DNA of 64,000 bases from Sinonovacula constricta (Eukaryota > Mollusca > Bivalvia > Cardiida > Solecurtidae): assembly GCA_007844125.1 (NCBI GenBank), contig CM017564.1, positions 19,238,115 through 19,302,114 of the forward strand, written 5' to 3'. This document shows positions 1,342-64,000 of this stretch, in pieces (the first letter of the stretch is position 1; every line of letters begins with the position of its first letter). Under the pieces are notes generated by a model. That model searched no databases. It was given only the letters and a program-made list of their open reading frames with translations, and was not told where the DNA came from. Made by a program: the position numbers and the translations under genes.

Positions 1342-2056
1342 ACAAGTATGATATATAAGATATATATATTGTTGCATTATTATAATTGACCCAGGATTCG
1401 CCTTTGCAGATTCGGCAAATTGCGTGCCAGGGGTTTTATTTGACTTTGTTTGATTCATTTTGTATTCAGGGAAGCCTGTGTGCCTCCATTTTTCCTGTAT
1501 CTTTTCTTTAGGTATTTACTTCTGTTTTGTTTTTACCTCTTATTTTAAACATTGCATTTTTTCCGTTGTAAACAATTCTGTTTTTTTTTATTCTAGCATG
1601 CGTCAATGTACTGTTCCAGCATTCTGTCAAACCTGATTTTTTGTTGTATAATATCTTCAAGAGAAATAGTCGCAAGTCTCTACTACATTAGGCATACTAT
1701 AGCTTAAATGCCTGTATTTTTCACTTGAACAAGTGTCCACATTGGAAAACAAAACTTAGATTCTGTAACTCAAAGCTACATTTAATTTTTCTTTCTTTGA
1801 CACGAACCTCGTTTGAGTCCCATGGTATGGCCTTCATCAAGTGTCTAAGGCATATAATGGTTCACCCGATCATGCTTCAAGTCGGTTCTAGAGCTTGCGA
1901 GTTTGAAAGCGGTCTTCATTATTTTCCTATGCACATCTTACACACATAAGTCTTGGCAAACTTTTTTTTTTTCTCTTAACCTTTACTTTGTGGTCGTCTT
2001 ACCTACCCTCTTAAGTCTAAATATGAACAGTTATTATTCTGTTTATTTTAAATCAG
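1342..2056. other. Non-coding stretch upstream of the propeller exon
   Basis: It is AT- and T-rich with short pyrimidine runs. No RING or B-box zinc-finger spacing was found in any frame. The last bases form a plausible acceptor (TTTTAAATCAG). Confidence 0.5.
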
Positions 2057-3551
2057 CTTCGGGCGACACATACTCTGGCATGACAACACCATAATGAAAG
2101 GAGAAAATATTGAGCTTCAGGCCATCCTGGGCGCTGTAGACAGACTGACAATTTTAAAAAGAATTTACAGTAAACAAATGGAGTCGAGTCGGAAATTTAA
2201 CGAAGAATGTTACAACAAAACCTCTGCGGATATTGAACGAATGAGGAAATCTGATGATAACCCCGTCATACAAAATAAACAAAATAAACTAGATGAAATT
2301 GACAATGAAAATAAAAACAACACTAATAAAAACAGAACTAATTTGAAAAACTTAATTAAAAAAATCCTCCTACTGCCAGGCCTAATAAAAAAATGGAAAG
2401 ATGACCCATTTATTGATGCCTTTTTTAAAGGCCAGGAAGTGTTGAAATTGGAAGATGAATTTAAACGCGGCCAGGTGGACAATTCTAAATTGGAAGCACA
2501 TTCAAATGCGGTACAATATTCAGTAATACGAATTGACGCCAGATTATCAGAGATTAAAAATGATAATGCACGGCTCGTTGCTTTAAGAAATAAAGGGAAA
2601 AAAATATTGGAGTTTGAAAGGAAGCTTGAAGAATACATTTATAAAACGACTTTCAAGACGCTTAAAGTAGAAAAAATACAAAGTAAAATACATTGCTCGA
2701 GAAACATATGGAGAGGTTTGTTCGAACCATCGGTAATCGAGCTGTATAACATCCGTACAAAAATGGACATTAATAATAAGTGCTGGGCGCCTGGTATTTT
2801 AGAGCTTACAGAGACCCTACTTATTTTAACTGATTGGAATAACAGCTGTCTGAAATGGTTTGACCTGGACAGTAAAACCATCACATGGAGTTGGTCTCTT
2901 AAGTCAAAGCCCTGGGGTATAACTATAATTCCTGAATCGCGAATAGCCGTGACATTCCCAGACACTCAACAAATCTCATATTTTAAAAGCAATCGGGACC
3001 TTGATTTCTGTGGTCAAATACCTGTAGATGGCAGATGTTTGGATATACATAGTTCCGGCGACAAGCTCTTCGTAACATACATCTGTCCACAGCCAAAGAT
3101 TCAGATTCTTGCCTTGACAGGGAAGGTTCTAAAGGAAATTCAAAGTGAAACATTAGGCAATCTGTTCGTGTGGCCTATGCATTGTGCAGTAAGTCAAGAC
3201 AGCAAGCGGCTGTATGTCACTGACAATGCCAAACACACACTTACATGTTTGGACACAGACGGCACCGGCATAAATGTCCTTTGGACTTACAAAGATCAGC
3301 AGTTCAAGTATCCAACAGGCGTTATTACTGGGTTCGGCGACTGTATCTACGTCTGCAGTGCTATCCATGACGTAAAAACAATCCACGTTGTGTCTCCTCG
3401 CGGCCGCCTACTCGTCGTAATTCTACTGAACAAGAAGGAACTCAATAATCTCCAGGCTATATGTTACAGCAGCCACCACCAGAAACTATACGTGACAAGT
3501 GGTAATTTTATCACGCCATTGCCCCTGATGAAAAGGACCTATACATGCAAG
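2057..3551 (+). CDS. Coiled-coil plus NHL/TRIM-type beta-propeller exon (5' part of a predicted NHL-EEP gene)
   Basis: The frame is open from 2052, and the first ATG is at 2094 with A at -3. A candidate acceptor AG lies at 2055-2056, so RING/B-box exons could lie further 5', although none is visible in this window. From the ATG, residues 1-200 are charged and helical (coiled coil, with an Asn/Lys-rich stretch near 70-85). Residues about 210-475 repeat a propeller-blade pattern: LTDWNNSCLKWFDL, GDKLFVTY, SKRLYVTDN, GDCIYVCS and HQKLYVTSG. This is the C-terminal module of invertebrate TRIM2/3/56/71-like proteins, where the propeller usually binds RNA or protein. The exon ends AAG|GTGAGC at 3551/3552 after exactly 486 codons (phase 0). 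Reading past the donor adds only 29 nondescript residues before a stop. The next exon (4769) is also phase 0. Without a RING, ubiquitin-ligase activity cannot be claimed. Confidence 0.8.
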
Positions 3552-4768
3552 GTGAGCACTTTATTATTCAAATACGCCCGTTTTTACCTACAACCAAAGA
3601 AATGCTTTTTTGCGTGTGTGTCTCACTACAGAAACATATAAATTATCGTTAAATGTACATGTATATGATGTTATAAAAGGTGAAACTAAGATACTTGTGT
3701 AAATCAGACCTTGACCATTTTTGTCTAGGTAACGTTCGCTTGGATTAAGAGGGAAAAGGACGCCGTGACAAGTATTTTTAGATTTTAACTCACGTCATCA
3801 AAAAACAAACACATTATTGAAAACTAAAATCACTATGCATGTACAACAATTATCCAGAATTTCAAATCATTATCACAGTGCGGTCATTAATTTTATTATT
3901 TTCTACTGAGGTTTTTGTATCTTAAAATGCCAGTACAACAGTAATTTAACAAAGCATATTGGCAATCTTCAGTCTAATTTAAAGCCATTGAGAACCACCC
4001 TTAGTTTACTATAACTTAAAATCCGGGTAAAATGAAACTTAACTTGTACAGAGTTGATGAGTTCAATATGACTGGCATGAACAATTGTCACAAGGCGGTA
4101 TTTGTTGTGTTTGTTCTATTTTATTCAAGGTGCCTTCCAGATTACCACAGCCTTAATCTAGGATGTCGCTATTTTTAAATATTAAAGGGGTAAAATTATC
4201 AAATATATTAACTACAACTTCACTAAGGCGCACACACAAGTTAATAAAACTGTTAAAATCACCGAGACAAGTCATTATATAAATAGATAAAACAGGTACC
4301 ACATTGTAACGGTACATCGGCAAACGACTCAACTGGGTGCCCAAAAATCTACAAACTTCAATGTTGCTCGTAGATTTATGAAATTAAGCACTGGGTGTTT
4401 GGATTGTCCAAAACGACTGTCTTGACTGTCTTGAATACTTCCATCTTTAATGTTGTAAATCGATTTTATTCAAATTATTTTTTACGAAATATAAATATTA
4501 TCCTGACCTTTTCTTTACCTGACAATTTTAAGGTGAGTCTAATATTGTTTCTGACACATCTGTACAAACTGCAGATGTATCATTTATGTTTGTACTTGTT
4601 TTAAGTATATAATCTGTATTTAAAATATATGGCTTATTCTTTATTGAAAGCATATCTCTTTAGGCCATTTACCTTAATCATATCCGTCTAATTGGACATA
4701 ATGTCATCACTTTTTAACAAAAGCTGCGAATTGGATTTTGTCTTAAGTTGTCACTATTATTATTTCAG
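3552..4768 (+). other. Intron between propeller and EEP exons
   Basis: GTGAGC at the 5' end and TTATTTCAG at the 3' end give a canonical 1,217-nt intron linking two phase-0 exons. It contains one further candidate: an open segment 4374-4532, bounded by TAG at 4371-4373 and AAG|GTGAGT at 4532/4533, also phase 0. It could be an optional 53-residue exon, but it resembles no domain I know, and its 3' end could equally be read as a pyrimidine-rich acceptor. Confidence 0.6.
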
Positions 4769-5698
4769 CTGACATCAAGGAAAGTTAAAGCTACAGTACG
4801 TGTCTTTGAGCCTGATGAAAGCATAGATACCCAAGAGGGCCATCCTTGTTGCTTGGAAAAAAATAAAATAAAGGTATGCTCCCTTAATGTACGTGGCTTA
4901 AGAACGCGCTTAAAGGATAAAGCATTTAAACAATTTATTTATCAGCACCACATACTCTGTTTGACAGAAACTAATTTGGCGGAAAAAGACACACATTTTC
5001 CCCAACGGGAATATAAACATTATGCACGAATTAGAACACAAGTAAAAACGAAAGGTCCTAAAACTTCGGGCGGTATTAGCATATTTATTCACAAGAGCTT
5101 ATCACGTAATGTCCAGGAAATCGACTGTGATAGTGAATGTGTGTTATGGGTTAAACTGAAAGACGTTTGTCCAACTATTAACGAGCCTCTGCTGCTAGGA
5201 GCTGTATATATGCCAAGACACAATTCACCATTCTGGAACAAAGACTTACTATCCAATTTTGACAACGAAGTTCTCAGTAAGTGCGCTGCATGTAAACACG
5301 TCATATTGACGGGAGATTTTAACAGTCGGACCGCTTTGCTTCGCGATTTTATCCCATATGATGTAGACAACAAATATAGAGTATTAAAAGAGCTATCTAT
5401 TCCCCTAAACAGATCATCTACGGATGATTCATATGTAAATACTAATGGAGCAAGATTAATCGAAACGTGTCAAGATAACAACTTACTCATGTTAAATGGA
5501 CGATTTTCACAAGACAAAGGTGAATACACATTTTTTGTTAAAAGATTAAGCAAGAAAACAAAAGAAGTAACAGAAATAAAAACACTTATTGACTATACTA
5601 TCGCAACGGTTGAAACTTTTAAAATGATCAAATCATTTCGTGTAATCACAGATGCTCTTGCGTTTAGTGATCACAGGCCACTTCTCTTTGAAATTTAA
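4769..5698 (+). CDS. EEP (LINE-type AP endonuclease-like) terminal exon, probably spliced to the NHL exon
   Basis: This exon has 309 codons and a TAA stop, and follows a pyrimidine-rich acceptor (TTATTTCAG, AG at 4767-4768). The first Met is well inside the nuclease core (VYMPRH), so it is unlikely to be an independent gene start. Phase 0 matches the upstream donor at 3552. Motifs in order are CSLNVRG (Asn), CLTETNL (Glu), GGISIFIH, GAVYMPRH (Tyr), LTGDFNSR (Asp/Asn), LIDYTI (Asp) and FSDHRPLLFEI (Ser-Asp-His). These are the metal and phosphate ligands of the exonuclease III/APE1 fold as found in LINE endonucleases, and all appear present. The protein stops right at the end of the domain. No reverse transcriptase follows, unlike an autonomous LINE. 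Predicted activity is phosphodiester cleavage or hydrolysis; the substrate is unknown. Alternatives are an exonised retroelement fragment, or a separate gene with an unseen first exon. Confidence 0.75.
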   Translation: MTSRKVKATVRVFEPDESIDTQEGHPCCLEKNKIKVCSLNVRGLRTRLKDKAFKQFIYQHHILCLTETNLAEKDTHFPQREYKHYARIRTQVKTKGPKTSGGISIFIHKSLSRNVQEIDCDSECVLWVKLKDVCPTINEPLLLGAVYMPRHNSPFWNKDLLSNFDNEVLSKCAACKHVILTGDFNSRTALLRDFIPYDVDNKYRVLKELSIPLNRSSTDDSYVNTNGARLIETCQDNNLLMLNGRFSQDKGEYTFFVKRLSKKTKEVTEIKTLIDYTIATVETFKMIKSFRVITDALAFSDHRPLLFEI

Positions 5699-31269: not shown

Positions 31270-31610
31270 CTAAACCACTGATAACTTAATCGGGACTGCG
31301 TATTGCACCCCGCAGTCGGCTGGAAACAAGCTTTCGTCTTCCTGGATATTGGCGTTTAGGAAACATTGCCTTATTGATTCTTTGTACATCAGGGAGTTGC
31401 AGTTCTCGTGCTGCATGCACGACTTGATGCACTTGCATGTCGTTGATGTTTTCCATCTGACCAAAAGGGTCTCCATATGTGAATTTACATGTGTCTTTGA
31501 TAAACTCGTAAAACATGATTTCCCAAAAGGTGAGGCCTATACTAATTAGAGAAAAGACAGCGAAGAGTCTCAACATCATACATTTGACCACTGCCGTCTA
31601 TAGTTTTCTC
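31270..31610 (-). pseudogene. Small secreted PAN/apple-like protein, frame-shifted
   Basis: On the minus strand an acceptor (TTTTTTGCAG) opens an exon at 31,610, and the ATG is at 31,579. The first frame gives a hydrophobic leader (MMLRLFAVFSLISIG) and DTCKFTYG. The second frame, one base off, continues with TTCKCIKSCMQHENCNSLMY, then QCFLNANIQ and ADCGVQYAVP to a TAG at 31,270. The Cys spacing (C-x-C-x3-C-x5-C, then Y...C) is typical of PAN/apple domains, which are extracellular ligand-binding folds. The shift falls between about 31,470 and 31,490: the downstream frame has a stop (TGTAAA region) just 5' of this point. Either this copy is broken or the sequence has a one-base error. No further exon was found. 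Confidence 0.45.
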
Positions 31611-32890: not shown

Positions 32891-33393
32891 ACTCACCTCC
32901 AAACAATAAACATAAACTTTGTGACAAAATAAAAAAAAAACTCACCTACAAATAATGTTCATGCACCTAAAACGACACATATATAAAACAAAATATTCAT
33001 ATGATATGAGTTTTATAATGTATGCTAGTTTGTTCCGGATATCAATACAACCTGCTTGGGAGTATATCTGGACTACTAACACTTTACGATATGTTTTCAT
33101 TAAGTTAAATGCATAATGCCAACTCAATGGGACCGTAAAGTATTTTTATCCCTAACATTGTATCATTTTAAATTAATGGTTATAAATACAAACATCCTTC
33201 AAATCAAAATCAACTTGACTTCAAGAAATATTGCAAAATGAAGATGTACTCATAGAAATACACACGCTTCTCCTTTATTTTATATGAATTAGAACCCTCT
33301 AAACAATAAATATGTTCCATCTCATTAGCTAACTTCTTGGCCTTAAACAAAGCTTACAACTTAACATTTGTTTTTACTTATCTTTCATTTAAG

Positions 33394-33648
33394 CCCACAG
33401 TTCCACGATCCCTGCGCTTGGAAGTAAAGGAGCGATGCATGCAGGCTTTATATTCTTGTCGGTCCTCAAACAAGGAATGTCTAGAAAAGACAAAGGCTGA
33501 TTTAATTCTGTTTAAGTCAGATGTAGTTACGCAATTAAACAAAATTAAAAAGGAGATACTGAGCAAGGCTATGAAGCAGAATGAAGAAAACAACAAGAAG
33601 ATTGAAGACTTGGATCAAAAGATAGCATCACACAGAATTCACAGATAA
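33394..33648 (+). CDS. Candidate terminal exon encoding a short coiled coil
   Basis: After a pyrimidine-rich acceptor (TCTTTCATTTAAG, AG at 33,392-33,393) the frame is open for 84 codons in phase 0 to a TAA. The residues are charged and heptad-like (ECLEKTKADL, DVVTQLNKIKKEIL, NEENNKKIEDLDQKI), like the coiled coil of TRIM-type proteins. They are loosely similar in style to the coil of the propeller exon at 2,094. AATAAA at 33,796-33,801 could be the poly(A) signal. An in-frame ATG at 33,439 would allow a 70-residue product. No partner exon is certain; function unknown. Confidence 0.35.
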   Translation, partial: PTVPRSLRLEVKERCMQALYSCRSSNKECLEKTKADLILFKSDVVTQLNKIKKEILSKAMKQNEENNKKIEDLDQKIASHRIHR

Positions 33649-33801
33649 TCTGTTCTGAAAAACTCAACCAAGACATAAATATACAAATTTACACGAAGTG
33701 CGTGGATGGGGCCTGATATAAATCTAATGGGTCATTTTGCTGACATTTCTTCTAAAGTGGTATCTGTTGTTTTTCTCTTTGCAGAAAGTCTGTACAATAA
33801 A

Positions 33802-34914: not shown

Positions 34915-37195
34915 TAAGCGTAATATACCGTTTAAAAAATATAACTTATTAAGAATACCTATCTCGTTCAGGAAGCAAACAAGTTTGGAGTCGGACACTG
35001 TTTTAAATAGTTCGTATTTGTTATTGACATTAAAATATTAAGACCGAATATGGCCTTTGTCAATACAATAAAATGACATATGACTAGCTGTGAGTGGTTC
35101 CTGGCAAGGAACACATTCATGCTGAACTTCCCTCTTTAATAGATATAAATGAGTTAATCTAGTATGTCCAACGCGACAGCGGGTAAGAGCTACGTCTTCC
35201 CGCCTATTTCTCTGCAAATAGAGATATTAGTACCGACGATAGGTTTAATTGCGTTTAACTTGTTATTAATGGTATTGTCCCAACTTGTTTGCCATTTTGT
35301 TAAAATATATCGATTGATAAGTTTCTTAAAATCTGTGTGTGGGATGGAAAATTCTGTCTCATTAAGGGTTTAGGTTTCTTCGGATGGCTACATGACTAGT
35401 TATCCAAGAAAAAACAATATGCTTATTAAGAGAAAGTTCATTGAGTTTCAAAAGTAAATCTCTAATGTGAGGGTTGGAAAAAAATGAGGTTTTTTAATGG
35501 ACTGTAACACTGACAAAGAGTCATTTAACATTACAAATTTATCGCCAGGATGATTTGAAATGAATGAAAAGAAAGGTTACCAGCCTAGATTTCGGCTGTA
35601 AAGGTGGAAGATTCGGGGGTAATTTTTGTTTAAAACAATGAATTTTGCTTACAGAAGCACAGCCGACATATGAATCTGCTGTTGAGCCATCAGTATATAT
35701 CGAAGTAATTTGAGTATTTCTTGTTGCGCAGTTTGTTAAAATTTGAGCGAAGTACGAAAGGGTCTGTTTTTGACTTATTATATGTACAGAGAGTCAAATG
35801 AACATTGGGAGATTTTAATTGCCATGGTAGAAATTCCAGAACATTATTTTCTATTACTTGATTTAAATTCATTTGTGATGTGTGTTTGATTTCCAGCATG
35901 CGTAAACCAAACATTTTAATTGCCTTTGGTTTACGCTCGTAACAATGTTCGTATTTAGGATTACACTATATGCGGATTTTTTTGGATTAGATTTAACTTT
36001 AGTAATGAACTGAAGCGCAAGTTTCTCTCGTCTTCGATATAATGAAGGCTCATTAGCTTCAACGTAAAGCCTCTCTACAGGAGAGGTCCTGAGATCTCCA
36101 AGGGCCAGACGGAGTCCCTGGTTGTGATAAACGTCTAGCAACTGAATATATGACCTTCTTTCAGAGCCGTAAACAATGCTGCCTTAATCTAGTTTTGATC
36201 TTTCTAGTGATCTATAAAGTTGAAATAAAAGTTTTCTATTAGCTCCCCAGTCGGTATGGGATAAAAGTTTCAACAGGTTAAGAGATTTAAGACATTTAGA
36301 TTTTACTTATTTGATATGTGGTATAAAAGATAATTTGCTGTCAAATATGACACCAAGAAATTTGGTTTCCTTGACAACAGAAATACGAGTGTTATTAAGA
36401 AATAATTCAGGATCGTTGTGTTCTTTTCTGACAGAAATGTATGCAGTTTGTTTTGATGACTGAAAATTTAAAACCATTGTTGTTACTCCAAGTTTGTAAT
36501 TCGTTGAGGCATTGTTGTAATTGCCCTTCTATTGTGTTCATATTTTTGGAACGATGACATATAAGGAAATCGTCCACATGTAGTGAACAATTTGGAGTGT
36601 TTACACGTTTATTTATTTTCTAGTTAAAGAGAGTAACTGACAATATACTACTCTGAGGGACACCTTGTTCCTGTTTATGAATTTCAACTTGAAAATGTTA
36701 GAATGTCAGAAAGAAAACTGTTAATAATTGTGGGTAAACGACCCTTGAGACCAAGGTCACCTATATCTTTTAAAATCCCATGTTTTCATGTAGTATCGTA
36801 TGCCTTTTCAATATCAAAGAACACCGCTACAGTGTGTTCTTTCTTGATAATTGCATCTCTAATAAAAGTTTCAAATCGAACGAGATGATCGAGTGTACTC
36901 CGTTGGTTTCTGAATCCATTTTCAAAATTCTGTGAGTAAATATTTGATTCAAGATACCAAACGAGTCTATTATTTATCATCAGTTCTAAAGTTTTACATA
37001 TACAACTAGTCAAAGCAATTGGACCGTCTCCAGATAACTGAAATACTGTTGGTGGGACGATAAACCTAATAAACAAAGAAAGCAATTGGCCTGTAACTTA
37101 CAGGATCTGTTGGATCCTTGCCTTGTTTAGGTATTGGAATGACGAATCCATTTTCCAAGAATTTGGAACTTTTCTAGAAAACCAAGTTTCATTAA
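34915..37195 (-). mobile_element. 5'-truncated jockey-like LINE retrotransposon
   Basis: Reading the minus strand from 37,195, I can follow the second ORF of a jockey-clade non-LTR element. In order: FVIPIPKQGKDPTDP, then the reverse transcriptase with LTSCICKTLELMINNRL and AVFFDIEKAYDTT (about 37,110-36,786); VPQSSILSVTLFN; the catalytic region as HVDDFLICHRSKNM (about 36,560); the post-RT part GLRLALGDLRTSPVERLYVEA (36,120-36,060); an RNase H-like start IYTDGS (about 35,690); and a C-terminal part with HECVPCQEPLT (about 35,110) and KLVCFLNEIGILNK (about 34,970). The endonuclease and first ORF are missing, as expected for 5' truncation. No poly(A) tail or target-site duplication was identified. 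Confidence 0.88.
35040..37110 (-). pseudogene. Broken jockey-like RT/RNase H coding region
   Basis: The conserved Trp after AYDTT is replaced by a TGA stop. A segment between the palm motifs is lost, with a frame change. The GVPQG motif reads VPQSS. The first residue of the YxDD box is His. Further stops break the post-RT region, and the RNase H-like part is in several frames. It therefore encodes no working enzyme. The pieces remain easy to recognise, suggesting moderate age. Confidence 0.85.
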
Positions 37196-54071: not shown

Positions 54072-55559
54072 TACATAGCCTTAGACAAAAACCGTAGACA
54101 ATCATTGTAATGGTGTTGTCGTTGCATTGTTTATGTCGTCATACTGCATGCATTGTGCGAAGATATTTGTTCTTAGACTTCCTTTTCTGTTATTCGCTGT
54201 TCAAGACGTTGTTACTTTTGCCCTCTAAGCTATAACATGTGTAAAAACAATGACCATTTTTTTCCGCGGTATATCAAATGTACAACGCAATGGAAATTTG
54301 AATACAGGCACGTTTCAGTTGCTAGAAAACACATCTTCTAAAATAAAGATTAAACAATGTGACATCAATTACACCAGAGTCACTAACATCCGAACATTGA
54401 AACCATTTTATAAACATTAATGATTTCTATTTGATTTTACATTTTATCTTAAATTGGGTCTAAGAATGCTCATATATGATACCGGATTTGACCAAAATAA
54501 ACTAAGTTTGAAATTAACTGTTTCCTATTACATCAGTTTGTTCTGTATCTAAAACTTCCGAGTGCGTCATTCTTCTCTGAACGCGTGCAGTAGCGACAGG
54601 GATGCTAAGATGGCTTGTGTCACGAGAAAAAAGGTTTGTCAGACTTTTGTTTTAAATTGAGATTTTTAATGTAAGATGTTCATTGGGCTATTTTTGAATA
54701 CAATAATTGTTTTACATTGTTTGCCATACTATGAATTAAAATATGATATTTTGAGCAAGCCGTTAAAGGTGACCTATACGTTTAATGTTCTTTCCGACCT
54801 ATACGTCGTAACGTCGGAATTGGGAAAGGATACTACAAAAGCAAAATAAAATGTGATTATAATATGGTATACTGTGACGAGTAAAATCTGGTATACAATC
54901 AGTAGAATCGTGATATTATCAATGCTTTTAAGTTCATATTGACTTATGGTTATAATTTTGAGCAAAAAATCCCCAAAACACTCGCATTTTGCAACCTAGC
55001 TTTAAATCATGGGTAGGGAAAGTTGCGGATTTTCCGTCATACAACAACTATGACGTTCTTACCAGAACAATTTATATTTGAATTGTTATCCCTTCTTAAT
55101 GAATTTAATTACATATCCACCATTTCAGCACAATAATTTCGTCAACATTGACAATAATGTTCCAATGAACGTTTAAAAGAAAGAAAAGTCTCGTCAACAT
55201 CAGATCATATTTCAAAATGTTTCTAGCGAAACGAGCTTATAATGCAGAATAAATTTTTATAATTTGAGGAGCATTTTTTAGCATCTATTGTACATAGTTA
55301 CAATATAATAAATAAGCTGGTAAACAAGACTAACTAATTACCATCAAGCAGCTTTGTCAAATATTTTAATATAAACTTTTTATCGTATGGCTAATAACAT
55401 TTTAACAACAGATTACATACTTAATTTTATTTAGTACCTAGGTGTTCGTTTAAATCATGAAAATGGGTAAATTATCAAAATTATATGAAATTACCACGCC
55501 GATTTAAGTAACACAGTAAACTTAATAAAAATAGAATTGTTTTCTGCGGTATTATGGCC

Positions 55560-56389
<830 letters not shown>

Positions 56390-56604
56390 TAACTTGAACC
56401 GAATTATAATAAAGTAAAATTAATATTTATCTTACAATTAGGTAAAACCATCCAGTGGATATCAACATTTTTTCACACAGGAAAAGTAAATCAAAAAAGG
56501 CTTTACTTTGGCCTGAAAGTAGGCAGTTAGAGATCGTTTGTTTCTGTTGTTTTAATTGCAACAACTTTTCTGGTTGAAGGACGACACCGGACGTATGTCT
56601 AGGT

Positions 56605-56744
56605 AGAACCACAGACGTACGCCATGCCAGCTGAGAAACCTTTCCAGATTAAAGTTCTCGCGTCGACGGGACCTAAAATCGACGGCGTGACAAGATGAGA
56701 AGTTACATATAGGCGACTCTTACCGCTCAGTCATAGACCACCCC
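56605..56744 (-). mobile_element. tRNA-derived SINE, copy 4 (unit 1)
   Basis: The minus strand shows GAGCGGTAAGAGTCGCCTAT (A box), a decayed B box and the tail GGAAAGGTTTCTCAGCTGGC, in the same order as the copies at 20,410 and 32,203. Confidence 0.65.
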
Positions 56745-57357
56745 AGTACAAGTTTCTATGCAGGGCTATTCTACTTATTATTACAAAATCTGAAGTAAAT
56801 CCATCAGGAAGAAAAACTAACTAAAACTGTTTAAAAGATTAATGTTGCAAAGTGTGTCTCTGCTTAATGCCAAACTAGACTCAAATTGAACGCTTCTATA
56901 GACTGAATATATTTTTAAACTACTCTGAAATGATATACCAAAGTAGACTGAAAGTATAGCCAAAATAGGATGAACGTACATGCAAAACATGAATAGCTCT
57001 AAGCGTTAGCCAAAGGGTTTCCCCAAATAAGATTAAACTTATGAAGAGCTACATGCTCAAAACAGCTTTTACAACCAGGCTAAATAAATAGCATTTTGGC
57101 TAAATTTAAATAATCGTAAATGGCTTCAAATGAATGTCGAAGTATTCATGCGAGTGATTCAAAATATATTAACTAAAAGAGGTGCAATTGGAAATCCAGA
57201 CATCGGTGACTAAAGCTCCACCCTTTACCAAATATTTATATTAACGTAAGCAAGATAAGTATCATCATAATAATTATTTTCATTGTTTTTAGCATTTATA
57301 TTAGCAATTGTATTATTATTACTATTATTTTCATTAGTATTATCATTATTATTTTAG

Positions 57358-57445
57358 TTGTCATCCGACTCTGAGTTAGAAAGTTGCTTCCTCGGCTGTT
57401 AAAAGAATGGACACACCTGAGGCCATTCCTGGCAGTTCGTTTAAT
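57358..57445 (+). pseudogene. Degenerate SADERMD cassette exon, unit 1
   Basis: An acceptor (ATTATTTTAG) and donor (TTTAAT|GTATGT) are kept. The 88-nt exon has one extra A (GAAAGTTGC versus GAAGTTGC), and GATGAA has become GTTAAA, giving a frame shift and a stop. It shares ACACCTGAGGCCATTCCTGG with its neighbours. Confidence 0.5.
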
Positions 57446-57602
57446 GTATGTGGCTTAAGTACAATGATAAATCTTCAAGATTTTATGAATTTATTGACAA
57501 ATATTATATATATTGTTTTTTAGTCGAGAGGTATTTGCATTACTGTAATTGTTGTTGTTATGATTACTATTTATGATTGTGATTATATGATTTTTATTTC
57601 AG

Positions 57603-57680
57603 TCGCCTCACTTAGAAGATGCTCCCTCGGCTGATGAAAGAATGGATAAATATGAGGCCATTCCTGGCAGTTCTCTTAAC
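57603..57680 (+). CDS. Small symmetric cassette exon, unit 1
   Basis: The acceptor (TTTTTATTTCAG) and donor (CTTAAC|GTATGT) enclose exactly 78 nt. One frame is fully open for 26 codons in phase 0-0, containing LEDAPSADERMDKYEAIPGS. It is acidic and probably disordered, with a single Tyr in a DKYEAI context that could serve as a docking or phosphorylation site in a cytoplasmic tail (speculative). The host gene is not visible: no clear partner exons were found within the unit. Four relatives lie in this window. Confidence 0.45.
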
Positions 57681-57848
57681 GTATGTGGCTTACATATTTA
57701 AATCTTCTAAATTTTAAGATTAAGATTGACAAGTATGATATACTTTGTTTTTAGTCGGCAGGTATTTGCATTAGTATTAGTTTATTATTATTAGGGTCAT
57801 CCGACTTCAGTCGCATGACAATCTACTTATTCTACTGTTTTGTCATCC

Positions 57849-57891
<43 letters not shown>
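57849..57891. repeat. (TTA)n microsatellite, unit 1
   Basis: About 14 TTA repeats before TGTTATTTTTC. Confidence 0.95.
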
Positions 57892-58526
57892 GTTATTTTT
57901 CTTTGAACTTGTTTCAAATGCATCTACAGCAAAATGTTCTGCACCGACTTTTTCAAATTTTCAGGTATTGTGGGCACTAATCAGTTAGGCAATGTCCAGA
58001 TTTTTAATTTTAACTTTGTAGAACCACCTATTTCAAATTATTTCAAACTTTTGACGATTTGAGTGTATGGCGCTGGTTGATTTCTCTGACAAGGTATAAG
58101 TGCTTGAAAGGTGAAAATTAGACGGTCGTTAATAGAATGGTGTCCCTTGCCGTCCATAAAAGCTAAATTGATAAGTCTGTACAATCCTGAGGTGCATCTT
58201 CTCAAAATTGACTGTTACAGATTCTCGGCAGAGAAAATCATGTTTTACCAATGTTCAAAATTTCATAACTCTGTTTTAGGAATTTATCCTTGAAACCTTT
58301 CCAGCGTGTAGAGGTTGATATGGCAAATATTTCATTCGCATGTACTATGGGGGACGGACTTAACCGTTTAACCACAGTCCGCAATTTAGTTGGGAATACC
58401 AACGCCAAATAATACAAAGCCGTTAAATCTATATGGTTGTAGAGGTACATACAATCTTCTGCCACTGTTAGTGGAGCTTAACTCGCCACTACAACACATC
58501 ACCTGTGTATTTACACCTCCCTTTTC

Positions 58527-58712
58527 ATGTTGAATGAAGTCGCTCTTGTGTTAACACTTCCTCAATTTTCAAAATATCCTTACTCTGCCTATTTTGGGAA
58601 TTTATCGCCTGAACTTCACCCGTGTGTCATCCTCGATAACTTAAACATTTCATTTACTGGTACTCTAGCAATTAAAACAACGGTTTACAATTCAGTGACG
58701 ATTACAATTTAG
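58527..58712 (+). other. Conserved small ORF of unknown status, unit 1
   Basis: A 61-codon frame from ATG to TAG (SKYPYSAYFGNLSPELHP, then ISFTGTLAIKTTVYNS). The unit 2 copy at 63,521-63,706 is the same length. Six base differences separate them, four changing the residue (L/F, F/Y, C/F, N/Y), which does not suggest constraint. No domain was recognised. The strand opposite 58,238-58,465 is also open. Probably not a gene, or a fragment of one. Confidence 0.2.
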
Positions 58713-60527
58713 TTCAAAGAGCTATGCATTCATTTGCTATTAGCAACAACTGCTGTATGTGTTGATAGCGTCTAAGGTAGACAATTCTGTTAACAAGTAT
58801 TCTTGTGAAGCTTGATGGGTTATATTGCTTGTTCATTAAATATGTGATGGTAACGCGCAAAGTTGTCGTCTCTATCTAGAAATCATTATATAGCAAATAT
58901 ATTTACGCGCCTATGATAAACTAATATATGAACTTTGTATATGGGAGTATGTTAAATTATAACGGATTTGATGATTATTCGGGGTACACACTGTTCACCT
59001 CCACTAGAGGTTTAAACATTAATATTGTAGCAACGGATCTTTTGGACAAATGAATTTCAAATTCATATGACCGCACAAACAAATGACTTGTCCACACTAA
59101 GGCAGATTGTTCTTTAATTTATTTTGTTAGCAGTCATTCCACATATCCTCACCATGACTTAAAACTTTCTCTTTTCTTATTCTGAATACTTGTGCTTAAT
59201 ATCCTGTTGGTTTCCATCGTGTTTGATGAGTTTTTTTTTTTGTTTTTGTGAAAATTACTGAACTTCTAGGGTGAATTTTGCATTATGTCACCGGCCTATG
59301 TGACACTAAAATAAAGATTAAACAATGTGACATCAATTACACCAGAGTCACTAACATCCGAACATTGAAACCATTTTATAAACATTAATGATTTCTATTT
59401 GATTTTACATTTTATCTTAAATTGGGTCTAAGAATGCTCATATATGATACCGGATTTGACCAAAATAAACTAAGTTTGAAATTAACTGTTTCCTATTACA
59501 TCAGTTTGTTCTGTATCTAAAACTTCCGAGTGCGTCATTCTTTTCTGAACGCGTGCAGTAGCGACAGGGATGCTGAGATGGCTTGTGTCACGAGAAAAAA
59601 GGTTTGTCAGACTTTTGTTTTAAATTGAGATTTTTAATGTAAGATGTTCATTGGGCTATTTTTGAATACAATAATTGTTTTACATTGTTTGCCATACTAT
59701 GAATTAAAATATGATATTTTGAGCAAGCCGTTAAAGGTGACCTATACGTTTAATGTTCTTTCCGACCTATACGTCGTAACGTCGGAATTGGGAAAGGATA
59801 CTACAAAAGCAAAATAAAATGTGATTATAATATGGTATACTGTGACGAGTAAAATCTGGTATACAATCAGTAGAATCGTGATATTATCAATGCTTTTAAG
59901 TTCATATTGACTTATGGTTATAATTTTGAGCAAAAAATCCCCAAAACACTCGCATTTTGCAACCTAGCTTTAAATCATGGGTAGGGAAAGTTGCGGATTT
60001 TCCGTCATACAACAACTATGACGTTCTTACCAGATCAATTTATATTTGAATTGTTATCCCTTCTTAATGAATTTAATTACATATCCACCATTTCAGCACA
60101 ATAATTTCGTCAACATTGACAATAATGTTCCAATGAACGTTTAAAAGAAAGAAAAGTCTCGTCAACATCAGATCATATTTCAAAATGTTTCTAGCGAAAC
60201 GAGCTTATACTGCAGAATAAATTTCTCTAATTTGAGGAGCATTTTTTAGCATCTATTGTACATAGTTGCAATATAATAAATAAGCTGGTAAACAAGACTA
60301 ACTAATTACCATCAAGCAGCTTTGTCAAATATTTTAATATAAACTTTTTATCGTATGGCTAATAACATATTAACAACAGATTACATACTTAATTTTATTT
60401 AGTACCTAGGTGTTCGTTTAAATCATGAAAATGGGTAAATTATCAAAATTATATGAAATAACCACGCCGATTTAAGTAACACAGTAAACTTAATAAAAAT
60501 AGAATTGTTTTCTGCGGTATTATGGCC

Positions 60528-61359
<832 letters not shown>

Positions 61360-61574
61360 TAACTTGAACCGAATTATAATAAAGTAAAATTAATATTTAT
61401 CTTACAATTAGGTAAAACCATCCAGTGGATATCAACATTTTTTCACACAGGAAAAGTAAATCAAAAAGTGCTTTACTCTGGCCTCAAAGTAGGCAGTTAG
61501 AGATCGTTTGTTTCTGTTGTTTTAATTGCAACAACTTTTCTGGTTGAAGGACGACACCGGACGTATGTCTAGGT

Positions 61575-61714
61575 AGAACCACAGACGTACGCCATGCCAG
61601 CTGAGAAACCTTTCCAGATTAAAGTTCTCGCGTCGACGGGACCTAAAATCGACGGCGTGACAAGATGAGAAGTTACATATAGGCGACTCTTACCGCTCGG
61701 TCATAGACCACCCC
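61575..61714 (-). mobile_element. tRNA-derived SINE, copy 5 (unit 2)
   Basis: Duplicate of the SINE at 56,605 carried by the tandem duplication; one visible difference (CTCGGTC for CTCAGTC). Confidence 0.65.
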
Positions 61715-62327
61715 AGTACAAGTTTCTATGCAGGGCTATTCTACTTATTATTACAAAATCTGAAGTAAATCCATCAGGAAGAAAAACTAACTAAAACTGT
61801 TTAAAAGATTAATGAAGCAAAGTGTGCCTCTGCTTAATGCCAAACTAGACTCAAATTGAACGCTTCTATAGACTGAATATATTTTTAAACTACTCTGAAA
61901 TGATATACCAAAGTAGACTGAAAGTATAGCCAAAATAGGATGAACGTACATACAAAACATGAATAGCTCTAAGCGTTAGCCAAAAGGTTTCCCCAAATAA
62001 GATTAAACTTATGAAGAGCTACATGCTCAAAACAGCTTTTACAACCAGGCTAAATAAATAGCATTTTGGCTAAATTTAAATAATCGTAAATGGCTTCAAA
62101 AGAATGTCGAAGTATTCATGCGAGTGATTCAAAATATATTAACTAAAAGAGGTGCAATTGGAAATCCAGACATCGGTGACTAAAGCTCCACCCTTTACCA
62201 AATATTTATATTAACGTAAGCAAGATAAGTATCATCATAATAATTATTTTCATTGTTTTTAGCATTTATATTAGCAATTGTATTATTATTACTATTATTT
62301 TCATTAGTATTATCATTATTATTTTAG

Positions 62328-62415
62328 TTGTAATCCGACTCTGAGTTAGAAAGTTGCTTCCTCGGCTGTTAAAAGAATGGACACACCTGAGGCCATTCCT
62401 GGCAGTTCGTTTAAT
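62328..62415 (+). pseudogene. Degenerate SADERMD cassette exon, unit 2
   Basis: Counterpart of 57,358-57,445 with the same inserted A and lost GATGAA; it also differs at TTGTAATCC versus TTGTCATCC. The inactivating changes therefore predate the 5-kb duplication. Confidence 0.5.
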
Positions 62416-62572
62416 GTATGTGGCTTAAGTACAATGATAAATCTTCAAGATTTTATGAATTTATTGACAAATATTATATATATTGTTTTTTAGTCGAGAG
62501 GTATTTGCATTACTGTAATTGTTGTTGTTATGATTACTATTTATGATTGTGATTATATGATTTTTATTTCAG

Positions 62573-62650
62573 TCGCCTCACTTAGAAGATGCTCCCTCGG
62601 CTGATGAAAGAATGGATAAATATGAGGCCATTCCTGGCAGTTCTCTTAAC
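62573..62650 (+). CDS. Small symmetric cassette exon, unit 2
   Basis: Same boundaries, length and sequence as the exon at 57,603 as far as can be seen, so the exon has been conserved since the tandem duplication. Confidence 0.45.
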
Positions 62651-62818
62651 GTATGTGGCTTACATATTTAAATCTTCTAAATTTTAAATTTAAAATTGAC
62701 AAGTATGATATACTTTGTTTTTTAGTCGGCAGGTATTTGCATTAGTATTAGTTTATTATTATTAGGGTCATCCGACTTCAGTCGCATGACAATCTACTTA
62801 TTCTACTGTTTTGTCATC

Positions 62819-62819
62819 C

Positions 62820-62895
<76 letters not shown>
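62819..62895. repeat. (TTA)n microsatellite, unit 2 (expanded)
   Basis: About 25 TTA repeats, roughly 33 nt longer than in unit 1. The poly-Leu ORF here is an artefact of it. Confidence 0.95.
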
Positions 62896-64000
62896 GTTAT
62901 TTTTCTTTGAACTTGTTTCAAATGCATCTACAGCAAAATGTTCTGCACCGACTTTTTCAAATTTTCAGGTATTGTGGGCACTAATCAGTTAGGCAATGTC
63001 CAGATTTTTAATTTTAACTTTGTAGAACCACCTATTTCAAATTATTTCAAACTTTTGACGATTTGAGTGTATGGCGCTGGTTGATTTCTCTGACAAGGTA
63101 TAAGTGCTTGAAAGGTGAAAATTAGACGGTCGTTAATAGAATGGTGTCCCTTGCCGTCCATAAAAGCTAAATTGATAAGTCTGTACAATCCTGAGGTGCA
63201 TCTTCTCAAAATTGACTGTTACAGATTCTCGGCAAGAATTACCAATGTTCAAAATTTCATAACTCTGTTTTTGGAATTTATTTTTGAAACCTTTCCAGCG
63301 TGTTGAGGTTGATATGGCAAATATTTCATTCGCATGTACTATGGGGGACGGACTTAACCGTTTAACCACAGTCCGCAATTTAGTTGGGAATACCAACGCC
63401 AAATAATACAAAGCCGTTAAATCTATATGGTTGTAGAGGTACATACAATCTTCTGCCACTGTTAGTGGAGCTTAACTCGCCACTACAACACATCACCTGT
63501 GTATTTACACCTCCCTTTTCATGTTGAATGAAGTCGCTCTTGTGTTTACACTTCCTCAATATTCAAAGTATCCTTACTCTGCCTATTTTGGGAATTTATC
63601 GCCTGAACTTCACCCGTTTGTCATCCTCGATAACCTATACATTTCATTTACTGGTACTCTAGCAATTAAAACAACGGTTTACAATTCAGTGACGATTACA
63701 ATTTAGTTCAAAGAGCTATGCATTCATTTGCTATTAGCAACAACTGCTGTATGTGTTGATAGCGTCTAAGGTAGACAATTCTGTTAACAAGTATTCTTGT
63801 GAAGCTTGATGGGTTACATTGCTTGTTCATTAAATATGTGATGGTAACGCGCAAAGTTGTCGTCTCTATCTAGAAATCATTATATAGTAAATATATTTAC
63901 GCGCCTATGATAAACTAATATATGAACTTTGTATATGGGAGTATGTTAAATTAGAATGGATTTGATGATTATTCGGGGTACACACTGTTCACCTCCACTA

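Follow-up and report, generated by a model that had tools for sequence, protein, structure and literature searches.

A predicted TRIM/NHL-type gene of Sinonovacula constricta with a LINE-type endonuclease as its putative last exon

The window analysed here is a stretch of 64,000 nt of the Sinonovacula constricta genome (C10:19238115–19302114; assembly size 1.22 Gb). Near its left end it carries a gene that is best explained, with a probability of about 0.72, as a TRIM/NHL-type host gene that has a domesticated endonuclease of a long interspersed nuclear element (LINE) as its last exon, that belongs to a clustered, duplicated family, and for which a targeted-nuclease mechanism can be proposed. 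A predicted splice would join a host exon, encoding a coiled coil and a propeller, to a second exon encoding an EEP nuclease domain (Table 1). The gene model, the folds, the intact active site, the selective constraint and the family are all backed by computation.

The first-pass annotation of this DNA had placed a phase-0 donor (AAG/GTGAGC) after codon 486 of the propeller exon and, 1,217 nt later, a phase-0 acceptor that opens a 309-codon EEP exon without an early methionine. Both sites were reproduced, the donor at 3551^. Codon 486 is counted from the ATG at 2094, within a frame that is open from 2052 to 3641. This ATG is a putative start codon, and the predicted length of the joined protein (795 residues) depends on it; an acceptor-like site before 2057 (score 2.77) suggests that at least one further 5' exon lies ahead of exon 1. 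The frames are not attributable to chance, as their stop-free runs of 529 codons (exon 1) and 326 codons (EEP exon) compare with a maximum of 156 codons in 20 simulated sequences of 64 kb. By approximate score matrices the donor is, itself included, within the top 4 of the 3,746 GT sites on the plus strand of the window, while the EEP acceptor is within the top 78 of 3,112 AG sites and is the sole AG scoring above 0 across about 4601–4901. In the EEP frame a methionine first occurs at position 148, by which point three of the eight catalytic residues have been passed; the frame is thus not readable in full as a separate gene and needs an upstream exon.

The NHL-type propeller that had been claimed for exon 1 is clear by fold, though Pfam gives it marginal matches only (SGL at 4e-4 and NHL at 1.5e-3, each missing the cut-off). 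Its model folds like the NHL domains of TRIM71, TRIM2 and Brat, and the PDB entries ranking below these are mostly other propellers (lactonases, Pizza6, DFPase). A predicted coiled coil followed by an NHL propeller is the arrangement of TRIM-NHL proteins. There is no need to suppose that the EEP exon supplies the last propeller strand: the alignment of the model with NHL domains extends to residue 489, which is still in exon 1.

Membership of the second exon in the EEP fold is borne out by both sequence and structure. All of the motifs first reported were located, namely NVRG (residue 40), TETN (66), GDFN (182), LIDY (273) and SDHRP (300); Pfam returned Exo_endo_phos (E 3.3e-9), and the predicted fold resembles TRAS1 and APE1, with TDP2 and Crc also in the Foldseek list. 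The eight positions that we take to be catalytic, by reference to L1-EN and APE1 (Asn, Glu, Tyr, Asp/Asn, Asp, Asp-His), are all occupied in the window as N40, E67, Y147, D183, N185, D275, D301 and H302. The stop codon directly follows the EEP domain, and the order expected of a LINE, endonuclease and then reverse transcriptase (RT), is not found after it.

A twin of the gene (L009) lies 195 kb away in the same assembly, around C10:19045000–19049000. Both of its exons are open without stops, its donor and acceptor are identical to those of the window gene, and the proteins are 86% (exon 1) and 96% (EEP exon) identical. At the nucleotide level the two copies agree at 91% of positions in the coiled coil, 95% in the propeller and 94% in the intron, against 98.7% in the EEP domain and 99.6% in the 3' flank, which suggests gene conversion or later copying of the 3' part. 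At a third, diverged locus (propeller 48% and EEP 46% identical to the window), a coiled-coil–propeller exon (L029) ends GAG/GTGAGC in phase 0 (score 7.54), 9.4 kb before an EEP exon (L013) with a phase-0 acceptor (score 3.41). Donor and acceptor are placed as in the window gene, and we infer that the two exons belong to one gene. Scanning the EEP exons of L009–L013 gave a phase-0 acceptor above score 1 in L009, L012 and L013, and none in L010 and L011. Two canonical relatives with B-boxes, coiled coil and NHL propeller (L040, L042) have a stop codon where exon 1 has its donor, and no donor above score 2 was found at the end of their propellers. The fused protein originally proposed is in agreement with the twin, with the same junction phase at the diverged locus, with the missing donor in canonical relatives and with the constraint on the EEP exon described below.

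The same exons could belong to two adjoining transcription units, one a propeller gene that is read past the donor as far as the stop at 3641, the other an EEP gene using some other upstream exon; or they could be alternatively spliced cassettes, the fused form then being one of several products. This is unlikely. In its favour, the exon 1 frame stays open for about 30 codons beyond the donor, and at other loci the EEP domain shares one frame with a coiled coil and has no propeller. At C10 ~18.26 Mb the order is a coiled-coil frame (L043:4532–4903; phase-0 donor, score 8.42), an EEP exon (L041:167–1327; phase-0 acceptor) and only afterwards a propeller frame (L041:8934–9830; phase-0 donor, AAG/GTAAGC), an order which suggests exon cassettes that could be alternatively spliced. 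Against two units, the high-ranking donor is unchanged in the twin, whose read-through tail past it is shifted by a one-base insertion; the coding score, +0.195 bits per codon up to the donor (a value biased by the use of exon 1 as training set), is -0.153 past it; and no frame of at least 150 aa occurs between 3641 and 4718, a span that may yet hold small exons. With the L041 propeller as query, and 129 of 573 candidates scored, six propellers stood apart at 49–100% identity (the next was at 41%); each of these is located at C10 17.6 Mb or 18.1–19.25 Mb, and one is broken.

Selection was estimated as the ratio of nonsynonymous to synonymous divergence (dN/dS), counted by a simple method in which values near dS 1.4–1.7 are close to saturation. 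Between the window gene and its twin, dN/dS is 1.2 in the coiled coil (53 and 11 changes) and 0.38 in the propeller (23 and 16 changes, p 0.004), and the linker ahead of the EEP domain has eight nonsynonymous and no synonymous changes. Among diverged copies the EEP ratio is 0.43 (window–L011), 0.30 (window–L013) and 0.29 (L011–L013), with dS 0.68–1.67 and no stops in all three, and 0.37 for window–L014; that of the propeller is 0.43 (window–L029), 0.37 (window–L041) and 0.61 (L029–L041). In 13 of 14 pairs of loci with a coiled coil and EEP in one frame the EEP ratio is 0.20–0.79, the remaining pair (L014–L018) being identical. Three independent pairs combined gave p 0.004 with approximate site counts, two of the three being non-significant singly. 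The nuclease exon is under selection without an RT, the pattern looked for in a host gene with an exapted LINE endonuclease. A fast coiled coil and linker next to a constrained propeller and EEP domain fits a target- or partner-facing part in conflict, and fits relaxed constraint equally.

The EEP query gave 130 matches in the genome (128 of 1,663 candidates scored, so that counts are lower bounds), of which at least 28, in about 26 places judged by eye, lie within 4.7 Mb at C10 16.6–21.3 Mb. None of the 28 clustered matches is in an open frame of at least 1,000 aa, compared with 32 of the 102 elsewhere. One of the clustered places (L021) is a LINE, with an ORF1-like frame and a same-strand RT after the EEP domain, and another at 16.60 Mb, only 31% identical, may be one too. 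Twenty loci were fetched with flanks in a non-random choice from the best matches and C10 (18 in the cluster, one from another part of C10, one from C1). In 19 of them no same-strand RT was detected within 1.35–2.9 kb after the EEP domain (E 1e-3, three LINE queries); L010, L014, L018 and L026 have RT pieces on the other strand or upstream. Thirteen loci (L014–L019, L022–L028; EEP broken in L025) have an N-terminal region and the EEP domain in one frame, and in all 13 this region has a match, at E 2e-4 or better, to the coiled coil of L014 or L027; nine, not including L019, L022, L023 and L024, also match that of L040 or L042 (E 1e-3 or better). L020 has only 39 residues ahead of its EEP domain and no coiled-coil match, and L009–L013 have no in-frame coiled coil. 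No common 5' coding exon was seen by eye in the 330 nt upstream of 12 EEP loci, although these loci share the acceptor; L016 and L022 share an 80-nt block. The coiled-coil/EEP proteins appear to form a clustered, duplicated family, with or without a propeller.

A tree was built from 33 of 37 EEP sequences, L010, L012, L041 and P0003 being dropped as partial. The window gene, L009, L011 and L013 cluster with support 100, as do, with support 99, the 13 coiled-coil–EEP members together with L020. A group of LINEs from the same genome (support 98) is sister to the host EEPs (96 for the whole), the LINE labels of L031–L039 resting on open-frame lengths of 1,129–1,191 aa.

These data bear on the least favourable explanation, that dead, duplicated LINE fragments lie beside TRIM-like pseudogenes and that the splice sites arose by chance. 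The region is rich in repeats and several family members are broken, which would fit; nevertheless, it is very improbable, with frames that have stayed open at dS 0.7–1.7 and dN/dS 0.29–0.43, same-strand RT missing from the surveyed 3' flanks of 19 of the 20 fetched loci, and the phase-0 junction present at a diverged locus. The notion of a recent LINE fragment confined to this one place is contradicted within the genome by the twin, the third locus and the constrained family.

Several results weigh against a TRIM/NHL-type host gene with a working captured nuclease. The exon 1 structure model is poor overall (mean predicted local distance difference test, pLDDT, 53). B-box queries found no match at E 1 within the window and chance-level matches only (E 0.86–1.8) in the 8.7 kb upstream of it, so that these queries yielded no credible B-box in the 10.7 kb upstream of exon 1. 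Codon usage gives a weak coding signal in the EEP exon (0.055 bits per codon), and the twin is young, its EEP dN/dS of 0.47 resting on seven and four changes (p 0.19). No propeller was found in the 13.7 kb upstream of the L011 EEP domain. The node that unites the two host EEP groups has a support of only 31, and the tree for this reason does not decide between one capture and two. Frames are broken in L010, L012 and L025, and open members have lost a catalytic residue: Asn replaces the SDH aspartate in L013 (the EEP of the third locus) and L020, and Lys the Asn of GDFN in L016. These losses, and the many substrates served by EEP folds (TDP2, APE1 and Crc among them), would also suit a fused protein whose EEP domain does not work as a nuclease, being instead a decoy for LINE endonuclease, an inhibitor of it, or an enzyme that acts on another EEP substrate. 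Such a protein is doubtful, given that 13 of 21 family members compared, the window gene and twin included, keep all eight residues and that five of the other eight are partial (L010, L012, L025, L026 and L041, with changes in L010, L012 and L025).

The public protein P0007 is 88% identical to exon 1 only, spanning 2055–3383 and departing before the junction; a search with exon 1 and P0007 returned P0007 itself and one Mytilus protein (25% identity). The EEP exon found four proteins at 29–30% identity, and the joined protein five, namely P0007 and four of LINE type, three of them with an RT domain. Among 5.8 billion public proteins there was no fused relative and thus no second species, and viral contigs scanned with both exons gave no relative.

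If the captured-nuclease model is correct, splicing at 3551^4769 would give a phase-0 fusion of coiled coil, propeller, short disordered linker and EEP nuclease. The coiled coil may form dimers, the propeller would bind RNA or protein, as do those of Brat, LIN-41 and TRIM71, and the linker, being flexible, could let the metal-dependent EEP domain cut the bound nucleic acid. The most plausible tasks for a nuclease guided in this way would be attack on retroelement or viral nucleic acid, or RNA turnover; expression, dimerisation, ligand, cutting and role are what we infer beyond the computed features. More tentatively, the genes may constitute a lineage-specific innate immune family in which fast-evolving coiled coils and an interchangeable propeller pick the target and the catalytic LINE endonuclease destroys retroelement or viral nucleic acid, the same-phase exons being recombinable or alternatively spliced. 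A clustered family built on TRIM-like scaffolds seems to have arisen from a nuclease captured from a LINE, and it is constrained, with catalytic residues mostly intact. If expressed, it would offer a direct test of whether hosts make a guided effector out of a parasite's cutting enzyme, and of the way in which TRIM-like genes acquire new C-terminal functions.

Table 1. Predicted features of the fused gene and a related exon in the window.
Feature	Position	Strand	Basis or remark
Exon 1: coiled coil and six-bladed NHL-type propeller	2057–3551	+	open frame 2052–3641; acceptor score; P0007
Coiled-coil region	2106–2660	+	model helices H18-64 to H143-202, mostly pLDDT <50; fast evolving
NHL-type propeller	2736–3521	+	constrained
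Splice donor GTGAGC, phase 0	3552–3557	+	AAG/GTGAGC after 3551; near stop position of two canonical relatives
Intron, 1,217 nt	3552–4768	+	
Splice acceptor AG, phase 0	4767–4768	+	TTATTTCAG ahead of 4769
Exon 2 (EEP exon), 309 codons then TAA	4769–5695; stop codon 5696–5698	+	
Linker, 28 residues	4769–4852	+	pLDDT <50; precedes EEP domain
EEP nuclease domain	4853–5695	+	all eight examined catalytic residues present
Possible poly(A) signal ATTAAA	5898–5903	+	200 nt past stop
Degraded coiled-coil exon, second relative in window	33367–33707	+	82% like N-terminal part of L025; in-frame stop

A repeat at 1208–1357 was considered as a second EEP copy and rejected; it is a dispersed repeat, found again at 57350, 57595, 62320 and 62565. 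A stretch of 32 columns is common to this repeat and the exon 2 linker (score 18, compared with a maximum of 17 among 500 random segments), and the linker perhaps began as repeat DNA. The only RT matches of the window are LINE pieces at 36702–37149 (minus strand), opposite to the EEP gene. The window also holds a tandem duplication of about 4.7 kb (54338–59006 and 59306–64000, 98% identical) and an open frame with a PAN domain (31273–31536, minus strand; Pfam PF00024, E 3.5e-5). Elsewhere in the genome, one coiled-coil–EEP member (L026:5199–6986) has a long repeat (about TSESGKTE) inserted in its EEP domain. Coiled-coil–NHL genes are very numerous, with at least 86 matches (86 of 916 first-look candidates scored) on C10, C11, C13, C16, C4 and C1, and many lie close together at C10 0.55–1.46 Mb.

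In TRIM-NHL proteins (TRIM71/LIN-41, TRIM2/3, Brat) the NHL propeller fold likewise follows a predicted coiled coil, and the relative L040 has B-boxes, coiled coil and NHL; the window gene differs from them in its C-terminal nuclease exon and in that the 10.7 kb upstream yielded no credible B-box. TRIM2, TRIM3, TRIM32 and TRIM71 make up subfamily C, and TRIM-like genes that have lost parts of the RING–B-box–coiled-coil (RBCC) set are described, in the portion of PMC3503706 covered, which contains no mention of endonuclease. Bivalve LINEs are diverse according to PMC10294476, the available part of which has neither 'domesticat' nor 'exapt'. Neither a TRIM– or NHL–EEP fusion nor an expansion on TRIM-like scaffolds appeared among the open-literature matches listed. 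With LINE ORF2 endonucleases (L1-EN, TRAS1-EN and the LINE-size frames of the same genome) the window gene shares the EEP fold, the catalytic residues and a sister position in the tree; unlike them it has no RT, ends right after the EEP domain and, by prediction, is joined to host exons by splicing. CCR4/CNOT6, a leucine-rich-repeat and EEP deadenylase, also joins an EEP enzyme to a repeat domain, though to a different one and from another EEP lineage. To our knowledge there is one well-known example of LINE endonuclease capture by a host gene, p97Bcnt. This ruminant protein (bcntp97) is a BCNT protein that carries an RTE-1 LINE endonuclease domain, according to PMC7284322 and PMC6713933, and was studied by Iwashita et al. 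(2003, 2006, 2009; cited in PMC7284322). There too a host gene took up a LINE nuclease domain, after gene duplication, but the host part is BCNT rather than a TRIM-like coiled coil and NHL propeller, and the present family has many members; the likeness is one of kind. A gene of this kind would be familiar from p97Bcnt, and the new part would be the pairing of the nuclease with TRIM-like scaffolds and its expansion.
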